From positions 1 to 36,308 of the IMG/VR virus record IMGVR_UViG_3300025128_000143: a DNA stretch of 36,308 bases. One strand, written 5' to 3'. Below are positions 31,888 to 35,508 of the stretch, piece after piece. The stretch is from a virus. How positions within the stretch are numbered: position 1 is the first letter of the stretch; each line of letters opens with the position of its first letter. The position numbers were made by a program, and so were the translations under genes. The notes beneath the pieces are model-generated. The model ran no database searches. It was not told the DNA's origin and saw only the letters and a program-made list of their open reading frames with translations.

Positions 31888-32286
31888 TTACTCCACAAGA
31901 AGGTGATACCCAGTTGTCCAATCATCTGGGTCGGACACTTCGATCTGCGTCACTTTCTGGAGTGACTGATCGCGGTCCCAGGTAAAAACAGGGCGCCCTG
32001 CTTCTAAAGCAGATTGAACAATGCGAGCGGTTGCACGCCCACAATAGCGCCCAGGGATAACAAAGAGGTTGTATCGAGGTTTACGGGTAACAGCGTGAAT
32101 CGCAGTCGTTGTGCTCTCTGCCCACTCATCCCAATCTCCTCGGAAGTTTGTGTCGTAGTCCTTTCGCGCTGCAACGATTTGAGCCCCTGTACTCCCCCGT
32201 TGGGTGAAGAGGTCTGACAGTTCGAGTACCGCTGAAAAGATACCTCGCGTAGATTCAGATGATGGGTGTGCGTAAAATACTCTCAT
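31888..32286 (-). CDS. Nucleoside 2-deoxyribosyltransferase-like protein (tentative)
   Basis: A 132-residue protein starting MRVFYAHPSS, a strand-turn start typical of nucleoside 2-deoxyribosyltransferase-like Rossmann folds. A later segment (NLFVIPGRYCGRATARIVQ, SALEAGRPVFTWD) matches the way these proteins follow a strand with a Gly-rich turn and a helix that ends in an Ala-Gly-x-Pro-Val strand. These enzymes exchange or hydrolyse bases from deoxynucleosides. I cannot identify the catalytic Glu with confidence, so a non-enzymatic relative is possible. Its ATG overlaps the polymerase stop (ATGA), which links it to DNA metabolism. The position right after a polymerase with a uracil-glycosylase domain is notable. 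Confidence 0.45.
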   Translation of the reverse strand: MRVFYAHPSSESTRGIFSAVLELSDLFTQRGSTGAQIVAARKDYDTNFRGDWDEWAESTTTAIHAVTRKPRYNLFVIPGRYCGRATARIVQSALEAGRPVFTWDRDQSLQKVTQIEVSDPDDWTTGYHLLVE

Positions 32287-34838
32287 ACTTCCTTCCAGTT
32301 CATGCCAATCTCCGCTTCCGCTGTATAGAGGATTCGGGGATTAGTCTTACGTTTACGGGTCATGGTTTCGGTTAGTTGTTTGCAGACTTCTTCTGCTCTC
32401 TCTTCGGGCACCTCAAACACCAGCGAATCGTGACACTGGTTGACGAGGCCCAGGTTGTTCTCGAAGTCAAAGGGAAGGACATCGCCTCCCCCGATTCCTT
32501 CAGTCGACGCACCCTCTTCGCCCAAGACAAGTTCAAGCATTGCTTCGTGTACAAGCGCCGCTCCACCTGCCTGGATGGGGTGGTTTACCAGTTCGTTGAT
32601 CTTCTCTTCGTCCCTGAAGTCTCTGCGGCGTCCCCACAGGGTGTCGCCAATGAACCCCTGCCTCCTGTAGAGAGACTGCATAGAACGCCACCAGCGGGGT
32701 ATCTCGGGGTCAGCACGCTCCAATCCGCGTACAACCTGCCGGATGTCCCGCTTCTTCAGGTGGGCATAGACAAGCTTTCCATTCTCATCTTCTGCGCTGA
32801 TGACCTGTTCGTGAATCCTGGGCACGGCTGCGGCATACTGCCAGGCATACCGAACGTTCTTGGTGATACCCCGCATAGACTTGAACGTGCCTGCGCCTTT
32901 CTTCTTCCTGTCTTCGGGCGCACCATCCATCTCCCAGACGGCTGCACCGTAAACCATCTCCATGGTTTCGTTATGGGGGTCATACCCATCAGCGAAGGAC
33001 TTGAGAAGACGCTCGGCGTTTGCCTCTTCTGCAATCAGCCGTAGCTCAAGCTGATCCATATCCGCGCCCACAAATACGTGCCCTTCTTCGGGAATAAACA
33101 GGTCCCTGAAGTCGTAAGGAATGTTCTGCGCGTTTGGATCTGATGAAGAGTATCTACCTGTTGCTGGCAGGCGATTGTAGGAAGGGTGTACGCGCCCGCC
33201 TCGGAGAACTATTCCCCTTCTCATCGTGCCCCCTGAACCATACGTTTCAGTGATGAGACGAAGCGGACGCAAGTATGTCCCTAACAGTTTCCCGTATCGG
33301 CGTACCAGCCTGATGGATTGGAGGAAGCGGGTCTTCTCTTCTTCCAGGCCATAGTCGGTGATCATACGACGGAGCGAGTCGTCGTCGGTGCTGGGGTCTC
33401 CAGTCTTCTCGTTGTATTTAACTGGCGAAAGGCCCCAGGAAGAGAAGAGGAGATTGCGGAGTTGGTGCGTTGAGTTTGGATTGAACTCTGCCCCCGCAAT
33501 CTCCTGGGCAACTCGCGTCTCTTCGATAAGCTTTCGCTCAAACGCGAACTCCCGCTCTCTGGCCTTCCCCAGATCTACCCGTAGGCCGAGACGCTGCATC
33601 CCAGCCCCAATAGATTGGAGTTTGTGTTCGCACTCCAGAAGGTGCCACTGATCCCGCTTCTTCACCTGACGCCCAAGAACAGGCGCAACGCGGGCTGTGA
33701 CACAAGCATCCTTCGCACAATAAATGTAGAGTTCTCTATCTGTTCGAGCCGTGGTAGCTGTGTGATCAGCCTTCCATGCCTCGGTGAAGTCTGTATAGAA
33801 AGAGCCGACAAACCCGAGATTGTGCGGCATCTCATTGTCTGTCAGTAGATGCAGCAAGATGGTATCGGCAGCAAGCTTGGGGGTAACTCCGAGGTACTGC
33901 TCCATCACAGTACGGTCGAACTGCCCTGCGTTATGCCCAACAACAGGGACAGGAGGCGAAGTAAAGAATGCTCGGAGCATCTGCTTCGCCTTCTCCTCGT
34001 CTTCCCTGCCCAAGAAGAGTTGTCCTTTGATCGACAGCACTGGCCATACAACAGCATAGCTATCGTTACTGATGCCGATACAGCGTAGGTTTGCGGTAAG
34101 GCTGATCTTATCGTCGGTCTCAACGTCGTATGCGACTGGGAGGCCCATGCTCTTAAACTGTTCCAGCGACGCTTTCAGTTCGTCCAAGCTACGCAGGAGC
34201 TTGATTTCAGGGTCAACCCACTTCAGAGTGCCCGAGAAGAAGCGGAACGCTTTCCGAATGTCGTGCTCGAAGACAGGCTGCCATTTCGGGTTCCGAAGTA
34301 CAAAGTCTGGGTGAATAGTATACGCCACCTTGATTACGCGGTCGGGGTCCCAAGGTGCGCGAATCTCTTCGCACGTACCTCGAAGACGCATCACAGATGG
34401 AGAGCCCCCACGTAGGGCGGCAGCAGACTCTTTCCCCAGGCAAAGGAAGTGCGTGAACTTTTTGATGTTCGCGTGCAACCTCGGCTTACAACACGCTTGC
34501 GGCGTCATCCATTCAGATTGCTTGTCTCGTCTGCGCTTGCTGTTCTTTCGCCCAAGTCGGAGCATGTAGCCTGGGAGGTCGTTGTTTGTTGGTCGGCAGG
34601 CGATGGCATTATCGATACGACATTCGTTTCTATCGATGCCGACTGCCTCCAACGCGCGCTGTAGTTCGTGGCCGCCTGGTCCCACGAATGGGCGCCCCAC
34701 GGACACCTCGCTGCCTCCAGGCGTCTCACCAATAATCGCCACTCTGTCATCGTCATGCTCCTCGCAATCGACGGGTATCCATTCGCCCTGCGTCTGCAAA
34801 TCAGTATGCAGGGGGCACTGCTGGCAAAGGGGTTTCAT
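32283..34838 (-). CDS. Family-A DNA polymerase fused to an N-terminal uracil-DNA-glycosylase domain
   Basis: An 851-residue protein. Residues 1-200 resemble a family-4 uracil-DNA glycosylase: Cys5/Cys8 (CQQC), GETPGG at 37-42, GRPFVG, Cys81 (ACRP), Cys116/117 and His176-Pro177; four cysteines could hold an iron-sulfur cluster. Residues about 230-390 are a 3'-5' exonuclease with Asp238/Glu240 (YDVETD), Asn303/Asp308 (HNAGQFD) and Tyr373/Asp377. The polymerase has motif A at Asp593 (DMDQLELR), motif B Arg656, Lys660, Tyr664 and motif C His803-Asp804 (CHDSLVFEVP). All catalytic residues are present, so proofreading replication is expected. Such glycosylase-polymerase fusions are known from SPO1-type phages. 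The ATG has only a weak ribosome-binding site. Confidence 0.92.
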   Translation of the reverse strand: MKPLCQQCPLHTDLQTQGEWIPVDCEEHDDDRVAIIGETPGGSEVSVGRPFVGPGGHELQRALEAVGIDRNECRIDNAIACRPTNNDLPGYMLRLGRKNSKRRRDKQSEWMTPQACCKPRLHANIKKFTHFLCLGKESAAALRGGSPSVMRLRGTCEEIRAPWDPDRVIKVAYTIHPDFVLRNPKWQPVFEHDIRKAFRFFSGTLKWVDPEIKLLRSLDELKASLEQFKSMGLPVAYDVETDDKISLTANLRCIGISNDSYAVVWPVLSIKGQLFLGREDEEKAKQMLRAFFTSPPVPVVGHNAGQFDRTVMEQYLGVTPKLAADTILLHLLTDNEMPHNLGFVGSFYTDFTEAWKADHTATTARTDRELYIYCAKDACVTARVAPVLGRQVKKRDQWHLLECEHKLQSIGAGMQRLGLRVDLGKAREREFAFERKLIEETRVAQEIAGAEFNPNSTHQLRNLLFSSWGLSPVKYNEKTGDPSTDDDSLRRMITDYGLEEEKTRFLQSIRLVRRYGKLLGTYLRPLRLITETYGSGGTMRRGIVLRGGRVHPSYNRLPATGRYSSSDPNAQNIPYDFRDLFIPEEGHVFVGADMDQLELRLIAEEANAERLLKSFADGYDPHNETMEMVYGAAVWEMDGAPEDRKKKGAGTFKSMRGITKNVRYAWQYAAAVPRIHEQVISAEDENGKLVYAHLKKRDIRQVVRGLERADPEIPRWWRSMQSLYRRQGFIGDTLWGRRRDFRDEEKINELVNHPIQAGGAALVHEAMLELVLGEEGASTEGIGGGDVLPFDFENNLGLVNQCHDSLVFEVPEERAEEVCKQLTETMTRKRKTNPRILYTAEAEIGMNWKEV

Positions 34839-34921: not shown

Positions 34922-35455
34922 TTACTCATTGTCGAGTAGGAAGTCGAAGTCTGATGCGGATGAAGAAGCGGTAGTAGTGGTGGGGGTAGCCGTCGCTACC
35001 TCCTTCGGCTCTTCGATGGCGATGTCGGCCACGGCTGCTTGAGCAGCAGCGGGAGACCGTGCGGCAACCATCATTTCAAACTGCGATTTGGGGTAGAAGT
35101 TGTATCGAGGATAGCTTCCGTCGAGACGCTTACCTTCGGCGTCAAGTTCAGGAGCTTGGTAGTTAAAGAAGACCTCGCGGTTAACGAGCTTGTCCAAGAT
35201 CTTATCGAGTTCGACAGCACCGGACAGCTTGTCTTCAGGCACTCCAGCAGAGACGAGGAAGACCTTGAGGAAGATCAAACCGCGCTCCAGGTTGAAGGAC
35301 TCGCGGTGGCGAGTTCCATCTGTCTGGAGGTAAATATAAAGACGACCGGAATCGTCAAACGTCTTGTGTTCAAGGATGGTCGCTACGTGAAGCCCGTTGG
35401 TCAAATATCCAATCCGTGTGCTCACAGACCCAGTATCACTAAAATCAACTCGCAT
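34922..35455 (-). CDS. Single-stranded DNA-binding-type protein
   Basis: A 177-residue protein. I start it at the ATG at 35455 because GGAG (35464-35467 as CTCC) lies 8 bases upstream; longer forms from 35488 or a GTG at 35506 lack such a site. The N-terminal 130 residues are beta-rich (GLHVATILEHKTFDDSGRL, YIYLQTDGTRH) like OB-fold proteins of the DUF669 or SSB type. A Ser/Thr/Ala linker follows, then an acidic tail with aromatic residues (DFDFLLDNE), as in T7 gp2.5 and bacterial SSB, used to contact polymerase. Position before the polymerase in a replication operon fits. The core fold was not confirmed. Confidence 0.7.
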   Translation of the reverse strand: MRVDFSDTGSVSTRIGYLTNGLHVATILEHKTFDDSGRLYIYLQTDGTRHRESFNLERGLIFLKVFLVSAGVPEDKLSGAVELDKILDKLVNREVFFNYQAPELDAEGKRLDGSYPRYNFYPKSQFEMMVAARSPAAAQAAVADIAIEEPKEVATATPTTTTASSSASDFDFLLDNE

Positions 35456-35463
35456 TGTTCTTA

Positions 35464-35467
35464 CTCC
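35464..35467 (-). promoter_or_regulatory. Ribosome-binding site that sets the start of the ssDNA-binding-type gene
   Basis: On the - strand GGAG lies 8 bases before the ATG at 35455. This supports the shorter start over the upstream GTG and ATG in the same frame. Confidence 0.6.
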
Positions 35468-35508
35468 ATTGCGTTGTTGTTGGTTCATAGCTGCGATTAC
35501 CCGCACAG

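Follow-up and report, generated by a model that had tools for sequence, protein, structure and literature searches.

The additional segment that interrupts the N-terminal uracil-DNA glycosylase (UDG) domain of the phage DNA polymerase analysed here is a helix common to a whole clade of viral polymerases bearing such a domain, not a crosslinking loop of the UdgX type. The polymerase is encoded in a virus record of 36,308 bases, the whole of which is referred to below as the window. Given its conserved residues and structural models, we hold with about even confidence that the UDG domain of the window protein is an active or uracil-recognizing family-4-type domain embedded in a replicase, and that its basic helix provides an additional DNA contact. 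Across the clade, a structural role appears almost as likely as this reading does for the window protein.

Architecture of the polymerase and its genomic neighborhood

The open reading frame, which was correctly located in the preliminary description, spans 32283..34838 on the minus strand, starts with ATG and encodes 851 amino acids that form an N-terminal UDG domain, a 3'-5' exonuclease and a family A DNA polymerase (PolA) in one chain. The proposed fusion of glycosylase, exonuclease and polymerase is borne out by Pfam matches to UDG (PF03167, residues 30-185, E 9.6e-17), DNA_pol_A_exo1 (PF01612, residues 218-392, E 6.3e-12) and DNA_pol_A (PF00476, residues 432-850, E 8.2e-48); moreover, residues 28-850 match phrog_17, DNA polymerase, in PHROGs. 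From the Pfam match, the model pLDDT and the match to structure 1vk2, the family-4-like UDG domain is placed at about residues 1-205 (34224..34838, minus strand). The proofreading exonuclease domain (residues 218-392; 33663..34187, minus strand) is delimited by Pfam and conserved residues, and the polymerase domain (residues 432-850; 32289..33545, minus strand) by Pfam, the match to 8oo6 and conservation. Polymerases took up the matches of the full-length fold search, and the UDG domain was therefore folded alone for its own comparison; the remaining chain matched Escherichia coli Pol I and Bst polymerase at Z 26-27 (27.0 for E. coli Pol I, 8oo6).

The features of a proofreading family A polymerase are complete, comprising motifs Exo I, II and III and Pol motifs A, B and C. 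All six exonuclease residues (D238, E240, N303, D308, Y373 and D377) are invariant in 53/53 full-length relatives, and the residues of polymerase motif A (D593), motif B (R656, K660 and Y664) and motif C (H803 and D804) are nearly invariant among the same 53 proteins. Exonuclease motif II (residues 301-309; 33912-33938, minus strand) reads GHNAGQFDR, an N-x4-D arrangement with one residue more than the N-x3-D found in Klenow, in which only F/Y varies across 25 aligned relatives.

The window contains matches to terminase-like, portal/head-tail adaptor and internal virion proteins and is therefore assigned to a tailed phage. The replication neighbors, partly seen in relatives, encode a DUF5906 primase-helicase, a SNF2-type helicase, a PD-(D/E)XK nuclease, a Sak4-like protein and an AAA/SbcC-like ATPase. 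The conserved gene immediately upstream of the polymerase (34922..35506, minus strand), which was aligned with five relatives, encodes a 194-aa protein that has no Pfam or PHROG match and ends in an acidic/hydrophobic tail (DFDFLLDNE), conserved in relatives as SSxDFDFLL. From the resemblance of this tail to the C-terminal tails of single-stranded DNA-binding proteins (SSBs), we consider the protein a candidate phage SSB, which could dock on a basic surface of the polymerase. On the other side, a conserved 132-aa gene (31888..32286, minus strand), delimited from the list of open reading frames and from relatives, overlaps the polymerase stop by 4 bases. It directly follows the polymerase in relatives too, with 39, 31, 41 and 41% identity, and its product carries the motif YxxFV...CGRATAxIV..AL..GRPVF; by eye, this protein resembles nucleoside 2-deoxyribosyltransferase-like folds, with no supporting Pfam match. 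A genome scan for the host yielded a single full-length relative of the polymerase, in a 57 kb contig of a Proteobacteria MAG that is probably itself phage.

A family-4-like domain with a basic helical insertion

All the family-4 landmarks that had been noted earlier were recovered in the window protein, namely CxxC (C5 and C8; 34815..34826, minus strand), GETPGG (37-42), GRPFVG (48-53), ACRP (80-83) and the motif 2 His-Pro identified from the alignment of relatives (H176 and P177; 34308..34313, minus strand), together with ACC at 115-117. The positions described for Thermus thermophilus UDG (TthUDG) and UdgX comprise the motif-A Glu, a stacking Phe, the uracil-binding Asn and the motif-2 His (PMC10359453; PMC10776899), and the window protein keeps the family-4 set of C5, C8, C81, C117, E38, E44, F51, N77, N86 and H176-P177. 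Among these are four cluster-type cysteines, i.e., the CxxC pair, the CRPP Cys (C81) and the next Cys (C117), which are predicted ligands of a [4Fe-4S] cluster. In the alignment, N86 falls at CRPxxN as in TthUDG, whose N89 is reported in the role of UdgX H109 (PMC10359453). Motif A, GETPGGSEV as opposed to the family-4 GE(A/G)PGxxED, keeps Glu38 and Glu44 but differs at Thr39 and Val45; the Val in place of the family-4 Asp at residue 45 counts against uracil recognition. Because the score against the NCBI model TIGR00758 (79.9 bits, the match being split by the insertion) lies below the cut-off of 125.3, we call the domain family-4-like rather than a strict member of family 4. Three further cysteines, C73, C133 and C156 (34622-34620, 34442-34440 and 34373-34371, minus strand), are invariant or nearly so in close relatives and absent in more distant ones, and are possibly structural.

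Structure prediction and alignment assign the N-terminal region to the family-4/UdgX fold. Folded alone with AlphaFold2, the domain has a mean pLDDT of 92.1 and matches 1vk2 with Z 21.7 (rmsd 2.2 over 172 residues, 34% identity), 1ui1 with Z 21.4 and UdgX (6ajo) with Z 21.7 (30% identity), so that family 4 and UdgX are tied at Z 20-22, whereas TDG/MUG lie far below at about 13.

The insertion itself (residues 87-112, between N86 and P113; 34503..34580, minus strand) is basic and consists mostly of one helix, residues 88-104, modelled in the isolated domain with block pLDDT 92-96 and in agreement with the full-length model. The basic segment RLGRKNSKRRRDKQSE singled out earlier is present, although it occupies residues 94-109 and not 93-108, and it does constitute extra sequence where UdgX has its R-loop. 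The gap between C81 and C117 is 35 residues in the window protein, exactly 15 in 28/28 measurable proteobacterial family-4 UDGs (of the 29 in our cellular comparison set, one has no second Cys), mostly about 22 in UdgX sequences and 31-54 in 71/71 non-redundant viral relatives. The refuting case raised earlier, an ordinary loop shared by most relatives, applies by half: the insertion is missing from cellular family 4 and universal in the viral clade. Uniqueness to the window is ruled out.

Whether the insertion might be an ordinary spacer that serves only fold stability bears on the same measurements. Its length varies and its sequence is only partly kept, as expected of a spacer; in contrast, each of the 71 sequences has it, the model predicts a helix there with confidence, and R97 and N99, within a pattern SRxNKxRxK characteristic of the closest relatives, are nearly invariant among close relatives. 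We consider a mere spacer improbable.

Less probable still, and very unlikely, is a UdgX-like domain that would covalently trap uracil DNA through a residue in the basic loop. Such a trap is suggested by the basic insertion at the R-loop position and by a plain count of residues, in which the distance from KRRRD to the next Cys equals that from KRRIH in UdgX. However, the nucleophilic His of the UdgX R-loop KRRIH was looked for in the window protein, where the corresponding segment is KRRRD and the whole insertion has no His, as the preliminary description had observed; at residue 105 the window protein has Asp, and relatives have Glu, Lys or Gly. A search for the UdgX motif A, GEQPGDxED (Q53, D56 and D59), likewise returned only GETPGGSEV, with T39 for the Gln and G42/V45 for the Asp pair, and the His that seven UdgX sequences share in the segment AVKHFK corresponds to Cys at residue 81. 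A tree built from 75 UDG domains separates the viral clade (support 97/95), cellular family 4 (97/89) and UdgX (100/97), and UdgX joins cellular family 4 (98/94) with the viral clade apart; other phage polymerases lie on long branches in unsure order. Membership in UdgX was rejected on motifs and tree, and the kinship at which the earlier comparison hinted is not supported; from the tree, the insertion and the R-loop most likely arose separately. The equal spacing of KRRRD and KRRIH was dismissed as coincidence, given that relatives with other insertion lengths do not show it and have no conserved His.

We return to uracil recognition by the ordinary family-4 route, for which the window domain appears to retain the residues of uracil flipping and excision. 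The gene product would be a tailed-phage replicative PolA that combines a proofreading exonuclease with an N-terminal [4Fe-4S] family-4-like UDG domain, whose most likely role is to recognize, and probably remove, uracil in the DNA handled by the polymerase, so that excision would be coupled to synthesis. The predicted chemistry is attack by water without formation of a covalent adduct, N86 occupying the position of T. thermophilus N89. The basic helix, directly after the motif-3 CRPxN segment, would most likely give the UDG domain an additional surface for DNA contact and so hold it on the template or a nearby single strand. The domain matches, the Z scores of 20-22 to family 4 and UdgX, the complete set of family-4 residues, the mostly basic insertion in 71/71 relatives, the essentially invariant catalytic residues of polymerase and exonuclease, and the replication and recombination genes nearby, partly seen in relatives, all favor this reading. 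The insertion is positively charged in most viral relatives but neutral or slightly acidic in some (L116, L128, L175 and L180), and a plain DNA-backbone role is therefore weakened.

Cysteines and uracil pocket in viral and cellular enzymes

Comparison of the viral polymerases that bear a UDG domain (71 non-redundant domains, <85% identity) with cellular family 4 reveals opposite patterns of conservation, in which the viral clade retains the predicted Fe-S cysteines while repeatedly losing the uracil pocket and cellular family 4 does the reverse. C5 and C8 are each invariant in the 69/69 viral relatives with the N-terminus present, and C81 and C117 in 71/71 each, whereas N77 is kept in only 54 of the 71, H176 in 66, N86 in 49, F51 in 56 (Leu in 15) and E38 in 52 (Asp in 14). 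N77 and/or H176 are lost in 17/71 (L089, for example, has Tyr at 77 and Asp at 176), which requires about 10 changes on the tree, and well-supported branches force 9 of these; the relatives were gathered by the conserved patterns RPFVG and HP, which biases the sample toward keepers of F51/G53 or H176, and true losses may exceed this count. In the cellular set, by contrast, Asn and His are each present in 29/29, and CxxC and the CRPP Cys are lost in 9/29. These nine proteobacterial UDGs (L136, L137, L148, L151, L153, L156, L159, L161 and L162) lack CxxC and carry Trp at the position of the CRPP Cys; they retain the catalytic Asn and His but probably have no Fe-S cluster. Within the viral clade, a subclade (L172-L183 and L120) has mostly Leu at F51 and mostly Tyr, His, Gln, Phe, Leu or Thr at N77; its uracil pocket is consistently remodelled, perhaps for another base or for none.

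The absence of any cysteine loss alongside 17/71 pocket losses counts against the uracil-recognition reading. Excision therefore cannot explain retention of the domain in those lineages, and the repeated losses argue against it as the sole role across the clade; several lineages likely keep the domain without uracil excision, as judged from the alignment, with cysteines and insertion always kept. It is a serious possibility, if one we place short of even confidence, that the domain is maintained mainly as a non-catalytic Fe-S module, DNA-binding or architectural, which would act through the basic helix and might serve as the docking partner of the SSB-like protein of the adjacent gene; uracil excision would then be an ancestral and dispensable activity. 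Besides the contrast between viral and cellular enzymes and the constant presence of the insertion, the abolition of UdgX activity by N91A and H178A, which affect the equivalents of the uracil Asn and His (PMC10776899), and the conserved acidic tail of the upstream neighbor speak for such a module. Against it, N77 and H176 are both kept in the window protein and in 53 further non-redundant members, a retention that would not survive neutral drift, and SPO1 gp31 keeps the domain without CxxC and the CRPP cysteine, the opposite of the viral clade, so that the cluster is not needed in every UDG-PolA. More tentatively, we suggest that in this clade a repair-enzyme domain has become a structural part of the replicase, built on the Fe-S cluster and the basic helix; selection would maintain these two, and the uracil chemistry would be optional and lost many times.

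Comparison with known systems

The reason for a UDG domain on phage replicases is unexplained in the papers found, and literature searches returned no functional paper on phiLo or on UDG-like polymerase domains. Within an incomplete coverage of the literature, the papers found discuss neither the insertion nor the contrast between cysteines and pocket. The close relatives found are uncultured viral contigs. The clade makes the question testable, with natural members that have or lack the pocket on a background of the same cysteines, a similar insertion and intact polymerase and exonuclease sites. If the domain is structural, many "UDG" annotations on phage polymerases are misleading; if it is active, the replicase would find uracil in cis.

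Among known enzymes, family 4 UDG (UDGa; T. thermophilus 1ui0, T. maritima 1vk2 and S. tokodaii 4zbx) shares with the window domain the fold (Z 21-22), the four cysteines, the motif A Glu, the Phe, the Asn, the CRPxxN Asn and the His-Pro. The window protein differs in its 20 extra residues after CRPxxN, which form the helix, in its fusion to a polymerase, in its motif A and in its low TIGR00758 score. UdgX of M. smegmatis (6ajo, 6ail) is alike in fold and in an extended loop at the same place, whereas the window domain lacks the KRRIH His, Q53 and D56/D59, has Cys for His at 81 and belongs to a separate clade.

The fusion of UDG to PolA is already known from SPO1, from PaBG and from the solved phiLo structure 9QHS, and the window protein has this type of arrangement. 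The family A polymerase of Thermus phage phiLo (9qhs) likewise carries an N-terminal UDG-like domain with CxxC, GEAPG, the Asn and the His-Pro, but it is 1175 aa long, has a shorter segment between the cysteines without the helix, and matches the window domain with Z 15.2 and 23% identity. SPO1 gp31, from the type of phage to which the preliminary description had rightly referred, and the polymerases of the PaBG group (Lupandier), a group of jumbo phages for which UDG-PolA fusions have been described (PMC7412058) and which we compared by description, share the UDG-exonuclease-PolA order; SPO1 gp31, however, lacks CxxC, the CRPP cysteine and GExPG and has Ser for the uracil Asn. The polymerase of virus Rctr197k (KX853510) resembles the window protein in its four cysteines, its UDG-PolA fusion and an insertion at the same point that starts in a similar way (TDYISVLRAAHAKQLRR), and differs in having only 25% identity overall and an even longer insertion of about 85 residues.
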